DNA of 33,672 nt from contig JABIFY010000110.1 of NCBI GenBank assembly GCA_018650465.1, forward strand, positions 1-33,672. Direction: 5' to 3'. A model generated the notes under the pieces. That model did no database searches, had not been told where the DNA came from, and worked only from the letters and a program-made list of their open reading frames with translations. Position 1 is the stretch's first letter. Each line of letters begins with the position of its first letter. The position numbers and the translations under genes are program-made. The DNA comes from Alphaproteobacteria bacterium (GTDB lineage Bacteria; Pseudomonadota; Alphaproteobacteria; UBA2966). Below, in pieces: positions 1,171-8,489 of the stretch.

Positions 1171-1331
1171 TCCATTCCAGCCGGTATAGTGAAGAATTTT
1201 TATGGTCTTCCCAAATATTTGTCATTCACAATGCGCCTTCATTGTCGTCAAATGAGTTGTTGATCAGCCAATGCCACCGGGCGGGTGTGGGCCCCCCCCG
1301 TCCCGCACGCGTTAACCCGACAGGCCTTCTG

Positions 1332-1535
1332 CTACCGGTGCTGTTCAACGTATTCTTCTTGTTTGCGCCGGGTTTGGTTCTGCTGTTCCACAATTGCGGC
1401 ATCCGGTTTGTCAGTGGGTTTGGTGATTCTTTCTATCTCCGCAGGCACTGTGACCAGCCCGATAACTAGAACCATCGCTGCGCTCAACACTCCCACAGCC
1501 AGATTTGCTCCTTCGACAATCGCTTCTGCGTCCAT
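1332..1535 (-). CDS. Small single-pass membrane protein, 67 aa, unknown function
   Basis: I do not recognise a family. The protein has one clear hydrophobic segment at about residues 11-32 (rich in L, V, A, G), preceded by an acidic N-terminus (M-D-A-E-A-I-V-E) and followed by a charged, glutamine-rich tail containing QQNQTRRKQEEY. This suggests a membrane-anchored protein with a short coiled or disordered cytoplasmic tail. The start is well supported: a perfect AAGGAGG ribosome site sits about ten bases upstream of the ATG. The ATG lies one base after the TGA of the preceding 83-aa gene, so the two are almost certainly cotranscribed and translationally coupled. Downstream, a C8 tract (1292-1299) lies between this gene and the DUF2971 gene. 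Confidence 0.65.
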   Translation of the reverse strand: MDAEAIVEGANLAVGVLSAAMVLVIGLVTVPAEIERITKPTDKPDAAIVEQQNQTRRKQEEYVEQHR

Positions 1536-1536
1536 A

Positions 1537-1788
1537 TCAGAATGCCTCCTTGGCTAATCCAAAGTGTGTTTGCTTAATGGCTGCGCCTGTATCGTTTAGT
1601 CTGTATTGTTCTACGCCACCGTCCGTATTGAGTGTATCTACCCAAATTGTACGCTCGTTCAAGTTTTGTAGTGTACTCTCTGTAATTGAATCTGTCACAG
1701 ATAATTTCTCGGCCACCTCTCGGCAGATCATCCTTTCGTCTGGCTTCAGCGCGCTCATGGTGTTCGCCTTGACTTCGCCTTCATGCAT
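1537..1788 (-). CDS. Small hypothetical protein, 83 aa, start uncertain
   Basis: Family not recognised. The middle, MICREVAEKLSVTDSITEST followed by LQNLNERTIWV and a predicted strand region ending QYRLNDTGAAIKQ, has the helix-helix-wing look of a small winged-helix protein, but this is inference. It ends one base before the membrane protein gene at 1535, forming a two-gene unit. The chosen ATG at 1788 has no clear ribosome site. Coding-like sequence (TLSKNGHDFTRRYMHE) continues upstream in frame to about 1836 with only a CTG (1824) as a possible start. A well-placed ATG at 1840 (after AAGAAGGATCT) is in a different frame. The real N-terminus may thus be longer, or lost through a small indel. 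Confidence 0.5.
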   Translation of the reverse strand: MHEGEVKANTMSALKPDERMICREVAEKLSVTDSITESTLQNLNERTIWVDTLNTDGGVEQYRLNDTGAAIKQTHFGLAKEAF

Positions 1789-1991
1789 GTAGCGCCTGGT
1801 GAAATCGTGGCCGTTTTTGGACAGCGTAAATATACGTCATAGATCCTTCTTACTCAGTTCCCATTCCAAAGATTAGTATTTGGCATGGCTTTGGAATAGA
1901 GATCGAACATGTTGATAGGCCCGGTATCGGGCCCTTCAATTAGGATTTAGCCAATACCTCATTTCCAATCCGAGGAGTGAATACCGTTCAA

Positions 1992-2026
1992 CGCTGTCGA
2001 ACAGCGGATTCCATATCCGCTGTTCG
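1992..2026. promoter_or_regulatory. Perfect 12-bp hairpin with a competing overlapping hairpin
   Basis: CGAACAGCGGAT (1998-2009) pairs perfectly with ATCCGCTGTTCG (2015-2026) across a TCCAT loop. The left arm can alternatively pair upstream: CGCTGT (1992-1997) with ACAGCG (2001-2006) around CGA. No T-run follows, so it is not a classical terminator. It may be an operator, a recombinase or relaxase site, or an RNA switch; the sequence alone does not decide. Confidence 0.5.
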
Positions 2027-2130
2027 GAACTAAGGAAATAGAGCTACGGATACTGCATCCGCTGCTCTGCTTATCTCCATTCAGAAATCAGATTTTCAAA
2101 ATATGATCGTAAAGGAATTTTTCGGCAAAT

Positions 2131-2204
2131 CGGCCAAATCGGCCATGGCGGCCACCCTCCGTTAAACCTTCCGCAAAATATGGCCGCTATGGCCGCTATG
2201 GCCG
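2131..2204. repeat. Two inverted arrays of three 9-bp repeats (CGGCCA core) beside attR
   Basis: CGGCCA occurs at 2131-2136, 2140-2145 and 2149-2154, exactly 9 bp apart. Its complement TGGCCG occurs at 2181-2186, 2190-2195 and 2199-2204, also exactly 9 bp apart. The two arrays face each other over a 26-bp gap and end about 68 bp left of the tRNA fragment. The regular phase and opposite orientation suggest protein-binding sites, such as arm-type sites of an integrase or its directionality factor. Direct folding into a long interrupted hairpin is also possible. Confidence 0.8.
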
Positions 2205-2271
2205 GTTTGTTCTTGGAGTATTCTATCAAGAATGGCGGTTTTCTGCGGTTTACAGGCGGATTTGCGCAGGA

Positions 2272-2316
2272 TTTCTAATCCGGTTGTCGCAGGTTCAAGT
2301 CCTGCCGGGGTCACCA
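2272..2316 (+). other. attR: 3' half of a tRNA-Arg(UCU) gene
   Basis: The sequence contains, in order, a TTTCTAA anticodon loop (anticodon TCT), the 3' anticodon stem TCCGG and variable bases TTGTC. The T arm GCAGG-TTCAAGT-CCTGC, a seven-base acceptor strand CGGGGTC, the discriminator A and an encoded CCA follow. The 5' half is absent: the bases to the left do not supply a matching anticodon stem (CAGGA instead of CCGGA), D arm or GACCCCG acceptor strand. An isolated tRNA 3' half with CCA is the classic footprint of site-specific integration into a tRNA gene. Because the original downstream flank lies to the right, the integrated element lies to the left. Confidence 0.8.
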
Positions 2317-2482
2317 ATCTCCCATCGTTTCTCATCTTCTTCCTGATTTTATTGGCCGATGGTCGGTGGGGCGGAACCACCAGGTTCTACACCTCCAATC
2401 CTGCTACGTCACGCTCCAGCGGAATGAACTCAAGAACTTACTCAAACGGCCAATAGTCAGTTTTGTAGCACATATAAATCGA

Positions 2483-2511
2483 TTGGTTTTTAGGTGAAAA
2501 TTTGCTATCAT
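2483..2511 (+). promoter_or_regulatory. Candidate sigma-70 promoter for the 65-aa gene
   Basis: TTGGTT (2483-2488) and TATCAT (2506-2511) are separated by 17 bp and lie about 55 bp before the start codon at 2565. The -10 box matches five of six consensus bases but the -35 box only three, so this is a reasonable but unproven promoter. Confidence 0.35.
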
Positions 2512-2564
2512 GAGATGAAATACAGCATTTCTGTGTGCTTTATTTTTCATGAAAGGAGTTTCAC

Positions 2565-2762
2565 ATGCCTGTTGAATCAGCTGCTGCGTCAGCAAAGGAC
2601 AGTTATATTAAAAAAGTGGATACTTCCGACCAGAGACGCCAATCTGCAAAGAATTCTGATATTGCTGCACGTGAAGATGTAAGCAATGGCGAGAGAGCCG
2701 ACCGCCGTCAACGGGAGCAAGTCGCTGCTGAACGCCGCGGCGGCGTCGACGTCGACGCCTGA
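2565..2762 (+). CDS. Small charged hypothetical protein, 65 aa
   Basis: No family is recognised with confidence. The protein has no hydrophobic segment and is rich in Asp, Glu, Arg, Gln and Ala. A predicted helical, disordered-leaning middle (SDQRRQSAKNSDIAAREDV) leads into a basic stretch (RADRRQREQVAAERR) and a GGVDVDA tail. The start is well supported by an AAGGAG ribosome site eight bases before the ATG, and a possible promoter precedes it. It is the first gene to the right of the attachment site, so it is likely native chromosome. A flagellar or envelope role is imaginable from similar small proteins, but nothing here proves it. Confidence 0.65.
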   Translation: MPVESAAASAKDSYIKKVDTSDQRRQSAKNSDIAAREDVSNGERADRRQREQVAAERRGGVDVDA

Positions 2763-2764
2763 AC

Positions 2765-2811
2765 GGATCAATTGTATCGATTTATTTCCTGGAATTTGAG
2801 ATTGATCCAGG
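2765..2811 (+). repeat. Overlapping inverted repeats between convergent genes
   Basis: GGATCAAT (2765-2772) pairs with ATTGATCC (2801-2808) over a long loop, and CCTGGA (2788-2793) pairs with TCCAGG (2806-2811). The two pairings compete. They lie directly after the 65-aa gene and could help end transcription, but no clean T-run follows. Confidence 0.4.
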
Positions 2812-2961
2812 TTGACAAAATTTCTTTGCCGCACTTTTAGTAGTGCTGTTCCGCACCAACATCAGATGAACGAGCCGCAAGGCCTGAATCCTGTTTTCCA
2901 GTCACTATTTACGATGCCTAGGGTGCTGTAAGGCTGGCGAGTAATGGATTCATTAGCCTCG

Positions 2962-3129
2962 TCAGTGGAAAGTCGGATCTACTTCCTCGTCATGGTCATC
3001 ATGCTCAACTTCAGCACAGCACATTGCCTGCGCAACCAGGGCGGCTCTTTCACGCAGGGCATTTTGCCCTTCGGCCAAAGTTTTTTCGATAACCTGCACC
3101 AGTCTTTTCGCAAGTTCGGTTTTCATCAT
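2962..3129 (-). CDS. Small protein with Cys-Cys and His/Asp-rich tail, 55 aa
   Basis: This is an unrecognised 55-residue protein. The first two-thirds should form amphipathic helix (KTELAKRLVQVIEKTLAEGQ). The end has adjacent cysteines followed by an acidic, histidine-containing tail (CCAEVEHDDHDEEVDP, then TFH), which could bind a metal ion; that is inference. I chose the ATG pair at 3129/3126 rather than the longer upstream frame because a strong AGGAGGG ribosome site lies immediately before it. The second ATG has the better spacing of five bases. The gene is convergent with the 65-aa gene. Confidence 0.6.
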   Translation of the reverse strand: MMKTELAKRLVQVIEKTLAEGQNALRERAALVAQAMCCAEVEHDDHDEEVDPTFH

Positions 3130-3412
3130 ACCCTCCTCAAACCAAAGACACTTTCTTGAGGTTTGGATATGGGGATCGAAACTGCAAGACGAAATGTGAC
3201 AGTTCGCCACAGCTGAATTCACGAAGAAAAGCCCTTATCCTCTGCGACATCTGGGCGCATTCCAAAGCACTCATGAGATAATTAACTTTCCACTGTAGGG
3301 ATCATGCGCATCTTCTCCCTGGGATCGCACGCCAAACCCTGTACATCCGGCGAGGTGCCGAATTATAGCACCTCGCCTTTTTTTGCCAGGCACCACAATG
3401 AAGGAAGTAAAA
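3130..3412. other. Intergenic region with possible leader or small RNA
   Basis: No gene is supported here. The region holds the divergent control sequences of the 55-aa gene and the AhpD-like gene, plus the strong terminator. A short frame from the ATG at 3304 runs through the terminator, but it has no recognisable product. Confidence 0.4.
3349..3384 (+). terminator. Strong rho-independent terminator just upstream of the AhpD-like gene
   Basis: A perfect 10-bp stem (GGCGAGGTGC 3349-3358 with GCACCTCGCC 3368-3377) and a nine-base loop are followed by seven T. It is only 28 bases upstream of the start codon at 3413, and no plus-strand gene ends between 2762 and here. It may act as an attenuator in the leader of the next gene or as the 3' end of an unannotated small RNA. 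Confidence 0.85.
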
Positions 3413-3772
3413 ATGACCACGAATTATCCTGAGTTGGCGAACGACCTCAGCGCCTCAATTGCTCGTCTTAGAAAAGGCATCCCCGACACAATGAAGGGGT
3501 TCTCGATGATGGCTGCCGCGGCAACTGCCGATGGCACATTAGACCCTAAAATGAAGGAGTTGATTGCCACAGCGATAGGTGTTGCCGTTCGCTGCGACGG
3601 GTGTGTCGCATTCCACGCAAAGGCAGCGGAGAAGAATGGTGCAAGTCGTGAAGAAGTATTGGAAACCCTTGGCATGGCTGTCTATATGGGCGGTGGCCCT
3701 TCAATGGTCTATGCCGCGCAAGCCCTGGATGCATATGACCAGTTTGCGGACGGATCGAACGTCCAAAATTGA
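3413..3772 (+). CDS. AhpD-like carboxymuconolactone decarboxylase family protein, 119 aa
   Basis: This is a single-domain member of the carboxymuconolactone decarboxylase / AhpD superfamily. The hallmark is seen at residues 61-68: C-D-G-C-V-A-F-H, a CxxC pair with a following histidine, preceded by a helix (KMKELIATAIGVAVR) and followed by A-A-E-K-N-G-A-S-R-E-E-V. Members with this motif act as thiol-dependent peroxidases or disulfide reductases, typically cytoplasmic oligomers. The substrate cannot be told. The ATG at 3413 is preferred over ATG 3398 because an AAGGAAG ribosome site sits just before it and the family begins at this point. The strong terminator upstream suggests conditional expression. 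Confidence 0.88.
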   Translation: MTTNYPELANDLSASIARLRKGIPDTMKGFSMMAAAATADGTLDPKMKELIATAIGVAVRCDGCVAFHAKAAEKNGASREEVLETLGMAVYMGGGPSMVYAAQALDAYDQFADGSNVQN

Positions 3773-3854
3773 TCCGCGACCATGGTCGTTTTTCCCAACC
3801 GGGCAAAGAAAACCAAACCGGCACGTGCCGGGGTACCTGTAATCACAATGGAAC

Positions 3855-4106
3855 TTATTGGCCTTCCGGTGGGAGTATTTCAACAACGCAAATATCATCG
3901 ATCAATTGCTCACGACGAATGTCTCTCAAGTGGGCTCGCTTTTCATCGTTGGTGAGATTTGCGCCAATACCCTGTGTCATGGTCAGCACAACGGATTTAT
4001 CGGGTAGATCCATCCAGTAGCTGCGACGGACCAGTTTGCCGTTTTCGTCCCTGGCAAATGGATTATCGGGATTACGCCCAAGGTCCGGTTCAAAAAATCC
4101 TGGCAT
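3855..4106 (-). CDS. Small hypothetical protein, 83 aa
   Basis: No family is recognised. The product is soluble, starts with M-P-G-F-F-E-P-D-L-G and has an ENGKLVRRSYWMDLPDKSVV segment that could form strands. A charged helix (NDEKRAHLRDIRREQLIDD) follows, and the tail is hydrophobic (ICVVEILPPEGQ). An AAGG ribosome site lies about eight bases before the ATG. The gene is divergent from the rhodanese gene, and the roughly 110 bases between them should contain both promoters. Codon use looks like the neighbouring native genes. Confidence 0.6.
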   Translation of the reverse strand: MPGFFEPDLGRNPDNPFARDENGKLVRRSYWMDLPDKSVVLTMTQGIGANLTNDEKRAHLRDIRREQLIDDICVVEILPPEGQ

Positions 4107-4214
4107 ATTCTAACCTTTGTAGTTTGTTCTATCGATCGACCTGAAGGCTATAGACGGGATGCGTCTTCAGCACTATCGTCTGGTCCGATTAATTCACAGG
4201 AGCCATGCAGCAAT

Positions 4215-4583
4215 ATGACTGAACGCGGATTCAAACAAATGATGGCAGAGGCCAACGCCGTCATAGATACTATCTCTGTAGTTGATGCAATGAAACTGAT
4301 TGATGACAAGACCGTTAGTTTCATCGATGTTCGAGAGAAGCATGAAAGAGAAGCAGCACACATCCCGGGTTCGTATCACGCAGCTCGTGGTTTCCTTGAA
4401 CTGATTGCCGCCAAGGATGGGCCTATGCATCAAGAAGTATTTGCCAGCGGAAACCATCTTATCCTTTACTGTGGAACCGGTGGGCGTTCGGCGTTGTCTG
4501 CAAAAACTCTTCTCGACATGGGAATAAGAAACGTCTCCAGCATGGCAGGTGGTTTTGCTGCCTGGAAGGAACTAAACGAATAG
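4215..4583 (+). CDS. Single-domain rhodanese-like sulfurtransferase, 122 aa
   Basis: This is a rhodanese domain of normal single-domain length. It shows the N-terminal VSFIDVREKHEREAAHIPGS motif, the active-site loop C-G-T-G-G-R-S-A with the catalytic cysteine, and the C-terminal GGFAAWKE signature. Enzymes of this type move sulfane sulfur from thiosulfate or persulfide donors to acceptors such as cyanide or thiols. There is no signal peptide, so it should be cytoplasmic. The start codon is moderately supported by an AGGAG element about twelve bases upstream; the internal methionines at residues 9-10 are alternatives. It stands alone, transcribed away from the 83-aa gene. Confidence 0.88.
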   Translation: MTERGFKQMMAEANAVIDTISVVDAMKLIDDKTVSFIDVREKHEREAAHIPGSYHAARGFLELIAAKDGPMHQEVFASGNHLILYCGTGGRSALSAKTLLDMGIRNVSSMAGGFAAWKELNE

Positions 4584-4765
4584 CATTTCCAAAACGGCAG
4601 TATCAGACCTGTCATCTCTCCACGAAGTAGGTGCTGTTGTCCACGGACTGCGCGGTTCTCGGCATTGGACTTTGATTTGATCAGGATCAATGTCTTTACT
4701 CTCGCTTTGACAGGAAAATGCATGATGCCTTCCATTTTCCAGGTATTGAAACCCCGGTACGATAA

Positions 4766-5155
4766 ATGATTGACCGACAAACGCGGCCACGATGGGCTAT
4801 TTTCCTTGGAATATTCGTTGGGATATTTGGCCTCTTGACGCTCAAGTCAGGAGGGGAGGTTTTGTTCCTTGATGGAGCCGCGCGAGAAGCTGCAGGAGAT
4901 TTCGTACCATTTGTTGTTTGGTTCAATTTTCTTGCCGGGTTTGTTTATATCCTTGTCGCTATTGGTCTGGTTCTCTGGCGGCCCTGGCTCTTTCCTTGGT
5001 CTGTCTGTGTTGTCGCCTTGACAGTTGTGGTTTCGATAGCCTTCGGTGTCCATATCGTGGCAGGAGGGGCGTATGAAGTCCGCACTGTTGGCGCAATGAT
5101 CTTCAGGAGCCTCGTTTGGTTTGGTGTTGCGTTAGCTGTGCGCCAGAGCCGCTAA
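4766..5155 (+). CDS. Four-helix integral membrane protein, 129 aa, unknown function
   Basis: Family not recognised. Hydrophobic segments lie at about residues 10-27, 47-71, 75-99 and 109-125, predicting four membrane helices. Short basic ends (N-terminal R-Q-T-R-P-R, C-terminal R-Q-S-R) are consistent with both termini in the cytoplasm. The first loop carries an acidic stretch (FLDGAAREAAGDF) that would face the periplasm. It resembles the many small uncharacterised inner-membrane proteins of about this size. The ATG has no strong ribosome site, so the start could shift slightly. It stands between the rhodanese and PilZ genes without obvious functional links. Confidence 0.65.
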   Translation: MIDRQTRPRWAIFLGIFVGIFGLLTLKSGGEVLFLDGAAREAAGDFVPFVVWFNFLAGFVYILVAIGLVLWRPWLFPWSVCVVALTVVVSIAFGVHIVAGGAYEVRTVGAMIFRSLVWFGVALAVRQSR

Positions 5156-5244
5156 CCAGGTCAGTCACATTCTTTCCACGCAGGTAGTTTGCAAACCGGT
5201 CAAAGCCACCGCAATATGCAGCGGCATCGTTTGCCGACAATTCT

Positions 5245-5269
5245 GCGTTTCCGTGAACCCCGGAAACGC
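5245..5269. repeat. Hairpin in the PilZ leader; stem shared with 6749-6773
   Basis: GCGTTTCCG (5245-5253) pairs perfectly with CGGAAACGC (5261-5269) across a seven-base loop, about twenty bases upstream of the PilZ start. The same GCGTTTCC / GGAAACGC stem with the same 9-base separation occurs at 6749-6773, suggesting a small extragenic palindromic repeat family. Confidence 0.55.
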
Positions 5270-5289
5270 TCTAATATCCAGGGAGCGTA

Positions 5290-5613
5290 GTGGACAATAT
5301 GCCGAAAAATAGAAGCAGGGCCGGGCGTTATATTGTTCCCGAAATCAAAGTTCTGATTGATGACTGGGAGTGCGATGTTGTTAACGTGTCGGCCAGTGGG
5401 TTATTGCTTTTTTCCGAGTATTTGCAGTTTGAAGATGGCGATGACTTGCAGTTTACGATCAAATTTCCGACCAGTGTGCGGCCAGCCAATATCGTCATGA
5501 ACGGGGTCGTCGTCCGGGGGGGCAAAGACGAGTTTGCCATAGAAAGCATTTCCCCGGCTATTACCTGGAAAAGGTTGCTGGCAAAACATGTTCGTGAAAG
5601 GGACAGTTTTTGA
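5290..5613 (+). CDS. PilZ-domain protein (probable cyclic-di-GMP receptor), 107 aa
   Basis: This is a single PilZ domain of typical length. The second signature is clear: CDVVNVSASGLLL, corresponding to the (D/N)xSxxG motif, followed by strands ending in NGVVVRGGKDEFAIES. The first signature, normally RxxxR, is degenerate: the N-terminus reads R-S-R-A-G-R-Y, with arginines at wrong spacing. Binding of c-di-GMP is likely but may be altered. PilZ proteins regulate motility, exopolysaccharide or other surface functions. The GTG at 5290 follows an AGGGAG site by four bases; ATG 5299 is an alternative start. It is convergent with the response regulator gene; a hairpin sits in its leader. Confidence 0.8.
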   Translation: MDNMPKNRSRAGRYIVPEIKVLIDDWECDVVNVSASGLLLFSEYLQFEDGDDLQFTIKFPTSVRPANIVMNGVVVRGGKDEFAIESISPAITWKRLLAKHVRERDSF

Positions 5614-5695
5614 TCGCGCGATTCCGGTCTAAATGAATTTGCGGCTGCATCACCGTCAATGTCGGAGATGCTCATGCACTATAATGACGCTTTGA

Positions 5696-6211
5696 TCAGG
5701 TGCTTTCATCGCCACGTCTGTCTGGCCCTTCATAATGACCGTAAACACGCTGTGGCAGTCGCCTCCGACAGGGACCGATATAGGTCTCGGTTTTGATTTT
5801 TTGTGGTGGCTTTAACAACATGTTCTTGATGCTGACTCCCAGATCTTTTTGTGTCACCGGCTTGACCATATAGTGGTCAACACCCTGTTTGATGGCATAG
5901 GTCACGACCTCAAGTGATCGTTCCGTACTCATCATAATGATGGGAATATGAGCCGACGGGGTCGAGGCTGGATTTCTTAACTTGCGAACAAAATCCAGAC
6001 CGTCGCCGCCATCCAGTTTGCTGTCCAGAATAACCATATCGACAGATGAGTTTTCAATTTCGTAATAACCATCGTCGCCGTTTTTAGCCATGGGTGTACT
6101 GCCAACGCCAAGATCGCGAAGCAGTCCGGTTATCAAATGTCGGAATTCCTGATCATTGTTGATGCACATGATCCGCAGGGCATGCCAGTCGAATTCTTCA
6201 GCGTCAGTCAT
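5696..6211 (-). CDS. CheY-like response regulator with C-terminal RRR-rich tail, 171 aa
   Basis: A receiver domain occupies about residues 12-132. The acidic pair is near N19-D20, the phospho-acceptor is D63 (VDMVILDSKLDGGDGLDFV), the conserved hydroxyl residue is S95/T96 (IIMMST) and the lysine is K117 (MVKPV). There is no output domain. The tail (YIGPCRRRLPQRVYGHYEGP then DRR) follows a pattern recurring after receiver domains in alphaproteobacterial regulators: YxGPxRRR and a later GPxRR. Such proteins act by contacting partner proteins. No kinase is adjacent; the histidine kinase at 28923 is far away. It is convergent with the PilZ gene. Confidence 0.88.
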   Translation of the reverse strand: MTDAEEFDWHALRIMCINNDQEFRHLITGLLRDLGVGSTPMAKNGDDGYYEIENSSVDMVILDSKLDGGDGLDFVRKLRNPASTPSAHIPIIMMSTERSLEVVTYAIKQGVDHYMVKPVTQKDLGVSIKNMLLKPPQKIKTETYIGPCRRRLPQRVYGHYEGPDRRGDEST

Positions 6212-6389
6212 AAAAATAAACTGCTATCAAAGTCCATGCGCCGCAATTGGGCAACAAAGGTGAAAATCAATATCGCGCACGATATTTCGAAGAAAAGAGA
6301 TTAAATGTCAGCTGTGAAAGGAAATACAACTCTGCCTATGCGTATTATCGTGCACATTCAAGTGTGACTGCAAGGCCGTCAGTTCAAGT

Positions 6390-6644
6390 TTATTCAGCGT
6401 CAGATTTTCTGTCGGTGACAACAATAGGGTTTTCTGCGACGCCTTGGGGGACGGCGATCTCGTCTCTGGTCAGAGGTTCATAAAAAAAGGCGGGGATCAG
6501 GGCTGCGATACCAGCAAAGACAATAACAGCTTTCCAGTCGAGATCGGCTAACCGGAATCGCCGATGCAGCCGCGAGCCGCGACCCAGAACCAGCCCGCCA
6601 AAAACCACGACAAATGTGCCCAACCAGACAAGAAAACTTTCCAT
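6390..6644 (-). CDS. Small two-helix membrane protein, 84 aa
   Basis: No family is recognised. There are two hydrophobic segments, about residues 4-22 (LVWLGTFVVVFGGLVLG) and 38-55 (AVIVFAGIAALIPAFFY), joined by a very basic loop (RGSRLHRRFRL) that should be cytoplasmic. A hydrophilic C-terminal tail follows. The ATG at 6644 is chosen instead of the upstream TTG because AGGAG and AGAGG elements lie before it. The gene is read in the same direction as the methyltransferase at 6879, but more than 230 bases with hairpins separate them, so they are probably not one transcript. Confidence 0.55.
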   Translation of the reverse strand: MESFLVWLGTFVVVFGGLVLGRGSRLHRRFRLADLDWKAVIVFAGIAALIPAFFYEPLTRDEIAVPQGVAENPIVVTDRKSDAE

Positions 6645-6748
6645 ATGACCTCTGCTCCTGGATGTCAAACGAGCTAGAGCTATTCCGGTTTAGACGCAAT
6701 AGCTTCTGTTCTTGTTATCGTTGCCCACAGTGAGTTTGCGGGAGCGCA

Positions 6749-6806
6749 GCGTTTCCTCCTTCGTCGGAAACGCGCTGAAATATTAGACCGTTTCGAACCG
6801 AAACGG
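6749..6806. repeat. Two adjacent hairpins, REP-like
   Basis: GCGTTTCC (6749-6756) pairs with GGAAACGC (6766-6773) over nine bases. CCGTTTCG (6788-6795) pairs with CGAAACGG (6799-6806) over three bases. Both stems share a CGTTTC core, and the first is identical to the stem at 5245-5269. They lie between two minus-strand genes and may stabilise mRNA ends or reflect a dispersed palindromic repeat. Confidence 0.6.
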
Positions 6807-6878
6807 AAACATAATATGGAATTTATCTCAGGAAGATGAACTGTAGAAGAACAAGGTCTTTTCGCGTCTGGACCTGTA

Positions 6879-7511
6879 TTATATCCGTCTGAAAATAACG
6901 GAATAATTGTTAGCTGGCATGTCGATTATTTCTTCGAATTCGAGACTGCATTCCAATGCTGCTGCGATAACATCTTCGAGGTTTCTAACACCCCATGAAT
7001 TGTCCTGCGATTTTAACCAGTCATCGAATTGCACATTGCTTTGCGCGGTGTGTTCACCACCCCGTCGATAGGGACCATAAAGAAACAGTGGTGCACCGGA
7101 AGGCAGAACAGATTGGGCCAGGGCCAACAGATTTTTCCCGGCTTGCCAGGGTGAAATATGAATCATGTTGGCATTGACCATGGCCGAAACATCTTCCATC
7201 GCTGGCACCGATTGCTGCGAAAATTGCAAAAGATCAATTTCCACGGCGGGCAACAGGTTGGCGGTGCTGCTATGTAGCCGCCAGGCTTCGATACTCTTGA
7301 GGGCTTTTGGGTCTTTGTCGCTGGGTTGCCATTTAAGGTGTGGCAAGCGCGGCGCATAGATCGCGCCATGCTCACCAGACCCACTGGCAACTTCCAGCAC
7401 AGTGCCGGACGTCGGCAACAAGTCTTGCAGAACAGCAAAAATTGGTTCTGCATTGCGTGACGTTGAGTCAGCCTGGAACCTGTCTTCAGGTGTAATTTCA
7501 ATATTTGTCAT
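6879..7511 (-). CDS. DUF938 family SAM-dependent methyltransferase, 210 aa
   Basis: This is a complete match to the DUF938 family, predicted class I S-adenosylmethionine-dependent methyltransferases of unknown substrate. The hallmarks are RNAEPI near residue 20, the SAM-binding GTVLEVASGSGEHG loop, then WQPSDKD, ANMIHISPW, FLYGPYRRGGEHT and a WGVRNLEDV segment. The C-terminal signature MPANNYSVIFRR is also present. Length is normal for the family and the product should be cytoplasmic. The ATG start overlaps no neighbour; the upstream protease gene ends 48 bases away in the same direction, so cotranscription is possible. The substrate remains unknown. Confidence 0.92.
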   Translation of the reverse strand: MTNIEITPEDRFQADSTSRNAEPIFAVLQDLLPTSGTVLEVASGSGEHGAIYAPRLPHLKWQPSDKDPKALKSIEAWRLHSSTANLLPAVEIDLLQFSQQSVPAMEDVSAMVNANMIHISPWQAGKNLLALAQSVLPSGAPLFLYGPYRRGGEHTAQSNVQFDDWLKSQDNSWGVRNLEDVIAAALECSLEFEEIIDMPANNYSVIFRRI

Positions 7512-7535
7512 GGATCAGAGCTTTGCGCTGTTACA

Positions 7536-7574
7536 GGTCACTGAAGAAAGTCAGACTGGTCACTGAAGAAAGTC
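7536..7574. repeat. 17-bp direct repeat (22-bp period) spanning the protease stop codon
   Basis: GGTCACTGAAGAAAGTC is present at 7536-7552 and again at 7558-7574. The second copy encodes the last codons and stop of the protease gene on the minus strand; the first lies just beyond it. This looks like a recent small tandem duplication of the gene's 3' end. Confidence 0.85.
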
Positions 7575-8489
7575 GATAAATTCACTGGCCGGGACAGCGA
7601 CACCATATTTTTCACGACGTTGGCCCTTAATGGCCTTGAGATGGGCTGTGCCGACATGTAATCCGACAATCGACATTTGACCGTCTGATATCTGAAGAAT
7701 TGGTGAACCAGAGTCACCTTCAACAGCGTCGCAATTATGGGCCAAAAGGTACCGCGTTTTGTTCAAACCAATTATGCGGCAGTCCGGGTTCAACGACAGT
7801 CGTTGGGCCATATCGTGACTGTATCCAGCTTGCAGGACAATTTGGGGATGTTCCGGAATTGCTGATATCTGGGCCGAAGTCAGGCTGACAACAGGAATAA
7901 TGCCAAGAGATTCTTCAGCTGGGCGACGAAGATTGAGGATCGCCCAGTCATTATTGATATGTTTGGGGCCTGCACCACCTTTGGCCGGATATTTCGGGGC
8001 GAGAGTGTAGGAGACAATCGCGAAGCTTGAGACAGCGTCGCCGCGATAATATCCCGCCATAAAATGCAGCCAATTCGCTGGAATCCATTTGCTGTTTTTG
8101 GCATTCCAAAGACAATGAGCTGCGGTCAAGACACGCGTCGGGCTAATCAAAGTGCCGGTACAATGGGTACCATTGATAATGTTGACCCGACCAACAGCAG
8201 TCCAAGGTGCTTTACGCGAGTCAATCTTGACTCGATCGTCGCTGCCCATGATGCCGCCGGACGAGTTTGCCAGGGCGGGGGCTGAAGACAAAGACATCGT
8301 GAAAAGTGAGGCTGCGCCAAAAATCAGTGCAGCACAGACCAGCTTGGCGTGTGAAGCTGAATTGCCTTTATAGGGCGACAAGCGGTTTTGTGTGTTTCTG
8401 GTCAAAAGTCCTGTTCCCGAAGCTTGACTGGCATCTTGGGCACAACATACTGTACTGCGTTCAAGACGATAAGCTATATTTGCCAACAA
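7560..8489 (-). CDS. Exported trypsin-like serine protease (S1 family)
   Basis: A chymotrypsin-fold serine protease. In numbering from the TTG at 8489, the catalytic triad is H125 (TAAHC), D181 (NNDWAIL) and S260 (EGDSGSP); C110 and C126 bracket the histidine as a likely disulfide. A signal peptide core (LVCAALIFGAASLF) ending at ALA-NSS places the mature enzyme in the periplasm or outside. The overall pattern, with a short N-terminal extension and a GTLISPTRVLTAAHCLW motif, resembles V8-like/glutamyl endopeptidase-type S1 proteases. No ATG lies at a suitable place; the frame opens at TTG 8489, and TTG 8405 or 8381 would give a more ordinary signal peptide. It follows the DUF2927 gene by about 20 bases, so the two probably share a transcript. 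Confidence 0.85.
   Translation of the reverse strand: MLANIAYRLERSTVCCAQDASQASGTGLLTRNTQNRLSPYKGNSASHAKLVCAALIFGAASLFTMSLSSAPALANSSGGIMGSDDRVKIDSRKAPWTAVGRVNIINGTHCTGTLISPTRVLTAAHCLWNAKNSKWIPANWLHFMAGYYRGDAVSSFAIVSYTLAPKYPAKGGAGPKHINNDWAILNLRRPAEESLGIIPVVSLTSAQISAIPEHPQIVLQAGYSHDMAQRLSLNPDCRIIGLNKTRYLLAHNCDAVEGDSGSPILQISDGQMSIVGLHVGTAHLKAIKGQRREKYGVAVPASEFIDFLQ

Follow-up and report, generated by a model that had tools for sequence, protein, structure and literature searches.

Two facing arrays of three hexamers each, held at exact 9-bp spacing across a 26-bp centre, form a unique, inverted-symmetric site in non-coding DNA beside an attR-like tRNA-Arg(TCT) end in the window (the whole 33,672-nucleotide stretch of DNA that was analyzed, from a marine alphaproteobacterium). 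We infer that the arrays bind a protein and read them, at a probability of roughly 0.4, as a strip on which a small DNA-binding protein of the adjoining island docks, most likely a winged-helix directionality factor (Xis/Cox/BldC type). That they are an att-linked protein-binding strip is a reasonable though unproven reading that their position supports in part.

The original prediction described three CGGCCA hexamers facing three TGGCCG hexamers, and this layout was confirmed, base for base, as follows.

2126–2154, forward strand: left array, CAAAT followed by three CGGCCA hexamers (at 2131, 2140 and 2149; 9-bp spacing)
2155–2180, no strand: centre of 26 bp separating both arrays
2181–2209, reverse strand: right array, three TGGCCG hexamers (at 2181, 2190 and 2199; 9-bp spacing) followed by GTTTG, inverted relative to the left array

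Spelled out, positions 2126–2209 read CAAAT CGGCCA AAT CGGCCA TGG CGGCCA, then 26 nt, then TGGCCG CTA TGGCCG CTA TGGCCG GTTTG (CAAATCGGCCAAATCGGCCATGGCGGCCA, 26 bases and TGGCCGCTATGGCCGCTATGGCCGGTTTG in compact form), with the 9-mers CAAATCGGC, CAAATCGGC and CATGGCGGC on one side and CAAACCGGC, CATAGCGGC and CATAGCGGC on the other. Beside each array stands a fourth, degenerate unit (GCAAATCGG/ACAAACCGG), that of the left array being TCGGCAAA at 2122–2129. GGCC reads the same on both strands, so a unit's orientation is set by the outer C...A bases together with the flank (CAWR) of each 9-mer. The inverted symmetry reaches beyond the hexamers to 29-nt arms, complementary at 25 of 29 positions, since the outer flanks are alike in both arrays (CAAAT/CAAAC).

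This observation is accurate and lies far outside chance expectation. The threefold pattern has two matches in the window, one per strand, and none in 100 shuffles, and a scan of the 33.7-kb window for any hexamer repeated three times at a constant spacing of 7–13 bp returned the array site alone (a Markov null predicts 0.03 hexamer triplets per window and 0 facing pairs). In the 1.9 Mb of DNA examined, the only facing triplet pairs were copies of the array site.

The placement of the arrays beside an attR, also part of the original prediction, held. The neighboring features are these.

2248–2256, forward strand: GTTTACAGG, the sole match in the window to GTTTACANS, adjoining the core and resembling GTTTAC repeats that surround attP in Rhizobium phage RHph_N28_2
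about 2264–2316, forward strand: attR-like 3′ half of tRNA-Arg(TCT), ending in CACCA
2269–2281, forward strand: core, GGA (2269–2271), TTTCTAA (2272–2278) and TCC (2279–2281), centred on the anticodon loop

Positions 2264–2316 match the intact tRNA-Arg(TCT) or tRNA-Arg(CCT) genes of relatives at roughly 83–93%, and ARAGORN detected no intact tRNA in the window; what stands at this site is a 3′-terminal piece of tDNA and not a complete gene, as expected of an attR. Given this tRNA 3′ half and its anticodon-loop core, the island lies to the left and the chromosome to the right. The crossover at this end would fall in the anticodon loop, one of the main classes of tDNA attachment; in the Islander collection, an anticodon-centred attP was recorded in 2083 of 3919 islands and 3′ fragments in 3760, with an attP span of about 250 bp and tDNA islands made by tyrosine integrases (PMC4383910). 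The arrays are intergenic and lie 70–145 bp inside the attR-like crossover, with the right array 73–92 bp from the crossover centre and the array unit nearest the tRNA fragment ending 60–65 bp away from it. By these distances, the arrays lie within, or just beyond, a normal attP half. From its resemblance to the phage repeats, GTTTACAGG at 2248 is possibly, on weak grounds, a candidate integrase arm-type site.

On either side of the arrays, the flanking ORFs read outward, leftward from 1788 and rightward from 2565, with a region of 775 bp upstream of the leftward ORFs. Three features of the island side are listed below.

1537–1788, reverse strand: 83-aa ORF reading away from the arrays, the nearest possible island gene, with no family match
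2004–2020, no strand: palindrome GCGGATTCCATATCCGC, part of an inverted repeat with 12-bp arms (1998–2026)
2046–2062, no strand: palindrome ACGGATACTGCATCCGC, related to GCGGATTCCATATCCGC

The frame of the 83-aa ORF is open further upstream, as RIFTLSKNGHDFTRRY, to a TGA (1537–1836, reverse strand; 99 aa open), and the ORF may be a truncated gene. No relatives were detected in the 385 genomes of the class beyond G000 and G001 (the latter being the other genome of the genus) or in viral contigs, and its structure model was too poor for use (pLDDT of 52). The two palindromes have centres separated by 42 bp, at distances of 263 and 221 bp from the att core; each shares the GGA-N7-TCC form of the core and looks like a tRNA-Arg anticodon arm. 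They are possibly operators, remnants of old att sites, or core-type sites. Rfam at gathering thresholds returned no match.

We surveyed the distribution of the arrays by scanning 84,980 species genomes for a pattern of two facing pairs. Nearly all of the 41 matches fall within long open frames or belong to GC-rich hairpins. The intergenic layout of three facing three recurred only in a contig (L050) of an uncultured alphaproteobacterial MAG (SI054_bin61) that is 100% identical to positions 1293–8059 of the window. This appears to be the same contig as that of G001 and is therefore not independent evidence. With a looser pattern, the 385 genomes of the class gave the array site in G000 and G001 only, plus four unrelated matches, and the seven other sites in the genome with exact CGGCCANNNCGGCCA pairs all fall within long open frames of 217–1004 aa. 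A dispersed extragenic repeat (REP/BIME or MITE) was rejected, as the genome holds a single intergenic copy; the finding that was to count against the original prediction, a simple extragenic repeat spread widely between genes, thus did not materialize. Searches by DNA of plasmids, phages, the genus, and the family yielded no homologous island beyond the identical MAG, and no second, independent copy of the element that would show conservation of the arrays turned up in any collection searched; the arrays are known from one lineage only.

Two sites related by tRNA end are without the arrays. One is the attP of RHph_N28_2, discussed below, and the other is a contig of genome G364 (C3; L290), where a tRNA-Arg(TCT) is followed by its 3′ half twice more, with separations of ~3.4 and 8.7 kb. 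This arrangement suggests a tandem set of islands whose integrases have apparently been lost; no integrase was noticed in the ORF listing of these islands and they carry no phased arrays. In viral contigs, one-sided arrays occur at 80 or more loci, and most of the 80 listed lie in long open frames. Among the viral matches listed, two (L136, 2967–3270; L207, 4236–4440) have intergenic, 9-bp-phased GGCC arrays, partly facing, located 3′ of an apparently shared kind of gene; these showed no att link and are possibly replication iterons or an operator. A combination of array and TTCTAA core was also sought in viral contigs and discarded, with three matches and none at tRNA ends.

The assembly does not contain the opposite end of the island, which is a gap rather than a demonstrated absence. 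An intact tRNA-Arg(TCT) with the same 3′ end and an attL were found neither in the 163-contig assembly nor in G001. The contig starts in an IS end with copies at ten further contig edges; the remainder of the island, integrase included, can therefore not be placed, and neither an integrase nor a directionality factor could be tied to it. Within the first 160 bp of the window, a 22-bp unit (ACACGGAATTCTGAACACCCTC) is tandemly duplicated at 117–160, as though two IS ends abut. The genome has 12 Phage_integrase loci, none of them on the array contig, and no CGGCCA arrays were found within 1.5 kb around the twelve; nor did arrays of this kind occur near its three HTH_17 proteins. The integrase on contig C37, although 29% identical to that of RHph_N28_2, adjoins a radC-like gene (radC as judged by eye) and was set aside as no obvious candidate. 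Elsewhere in G000, the end of contig C109 (L040, ~17709) cuts a tRNA-Arg(CCT) 3′ half within its anticodon loop; the assembly may have broken there at a further attachment site. The case shows that an island boundary can be read even when the integrase is missing from the assembly.

Four other explanations of the arrays were weighed. The island's tyrosine integrase might itself bind them as arm-type sites, a tandem set of three plus an inverted set. The tandem triple can be likened to the P′1-P′2-P′3 arm cluster of phage lambda, the spacing is of the right order, and the distance of the right array from the crossover centre is plausible; however, an arm set with all six sites on the same side of the core and three of them inverted would be unusual and unlike any integrase arms known to us, and GTTTACAGG at 2248 is the better candidate, given the GTTTAC repeats in a phage with the same tRNA end. 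With no IHF consensus match (up to 2 mismatches) between the array and the core as well, we consider this explanation unlikely. A long hairpin, which at the island boundary could work in RNA as a terminator or stabilizing element, or else form a cruciform in DNA, would account for the pairing of the arms (86% over 2126–2154/2181–2209) and for RNA fold z-scores of −6.3 on the forward and −5.0 on the reverse strand, and GGCCA-rich hairpins with two or three units per arm exist in unrelated genomes (e.g., L044 and L073). We nevertheless regard it as rather unlikely, as the loop is 26 nt long and no proper U tract follows; moreover, all four mismatches of the arms fall outside the 18 hexamer positions, an argument that is partly circular, the hexamer having been chosen by its conservation. 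The loop length, the weak T tail, and the nearest ORFs, which read away on both sides, count against an intrinsic terminator in particular; a terminator scan flagged small sub-stems only.

Regulation of nearby genes offers a further account, in which the arrays would serve as operator of the leftward island genes starting near 1788 and have no connection with excision. The arrays do share the 775-bp upstream region of these genes with the two palindromes, but the nearest start codon is about 340–400 bp off and attR is closer than any gene, making such an operator improbable. Least probable of all, and very doubtful, is a functionless, minisatellite-like 9-bp repeat born of slippage and inversion. 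Tandem Repeats Finder does report two short arrays of ~2.8 copies, and the arrays come from a single lineage, yet the copy number and spacing of the two sets are matched, their inverted, facing geometry adjoins attR, and the genome has no other such array outside coding DNA.

Under the preferred reading, a directionality factor docked on the arrays, protomers would line up head to tail, one to a 9-bp repeat; either array would thereby nucleate a short cooperative filament, with both filaments converging on the 26-bp centre. Sited 70–145 bp inward of the attR crossover, such a complex would put a bend in the distal arm of attP/attR, aiding integrase assembly for excision, and the same complex could repress leftward transcription from the shared intergenic region. 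If the arrays are directionality-factor sites, they offer a motif that is strict and easy to read in a protein class whose sites tend to be loose, and their facing layout would permit a direct test of whether opposing filaments build the excision complex.

Known systems supply parallels to this reading. Directionality factors bind with high cooperativity, one protomer per tandem direct repeat, and the repeats in 186 Apl, lambda Xis, Gifsy-1 Xis, and Pukovnik Xis are about one turn apart in the cited sections (PMC7498355). RdfS is described at about one protomer per 10 bp (PMC11963761), and BldC, a related winged-helix regulator, at exactly one per 9-bp direct repeat, head to tail, on CAATTCGGACAATTCGGACA (PMC5859096). 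The sections of these sources that we cite describe no facing arrays for Xis, Apl, RdfS, or BldC.

Aligned in register with the crystallized BldC site CAATTCGGACAATTCGGACA, the left array (CAAATCGGCCAAATCGGCCA) agrees at 16 of 20 bases, better than any other place in the window; among random 9-mer arrays of comparable composition, 0.9% score this high, with the comparator picked after the repeats had been seen. The right array agrees more poorly (13/20). The likeness of the left array is suggestive. The BldC sites of Streptomyces (whiI and smeA-sffA) share the 9-bp direct repeats, with the left array at 16/20 to whiI-opt; however, in the account cited, BldC is a developmental regulator with repeats in one orientation (PMC5859096), whereas here the arrays face each other by attR, with no BldC-like protein tied to them.

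A directionality-factor site would be expected to have tandem repeats of about one helical turn near the att core, all in a single orientation. Like the sites of 186 Apl, P2 Cox, and lambda Xis, described in the cited sections as tandem direct repeats next to the attachment core to which the directionality factor binds cooperatively, the arrays have such repeats, at 9 bp somewhat under the 10–11 bp of Apl; unlike those sites, which run in one direction, they form two opposed sets of three (PMC7498355). ICEMlSymR7A with RdfS is likewise an alphaproteobacterial integrative element in which a winged-helix multimer extends along attP at about one protomer per 10 bp, but the cited text states that a consensus motif could not be identified for RdfS (PMC11963761), whereas the array motif is strict.

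Rhizobium phage RHph_N28_2 (MN988516), the only annotated phage found with the array-side tRNA end, has the same tRNA-Arg(TCT) 3′ end at its attP and an adjacent integrase gene. Neither CGGCCA arrays nor phased triplets of any other kind occur there; GTTTAC repeats surround the attP core instead: five of the six GTTTAC/GTAAAC motifs in 5 kb lie within ~250 bp around it (L250, 2367–2618), and these are likely arm-type or factor sites of the phage integrase. Taken against these systems, the arrays are likely a variant layout of a known type of site. A bolder reading, which we hold to be rather doubtful, is a tRNA-island attachment site of previously undescribed architecture, in which two opposed head-to-tail BldC/Xis-like filaments, each built of three to four protomers with one per 9 bp, would converge on the 26-bp centre by attR and switch the direction of recombination.
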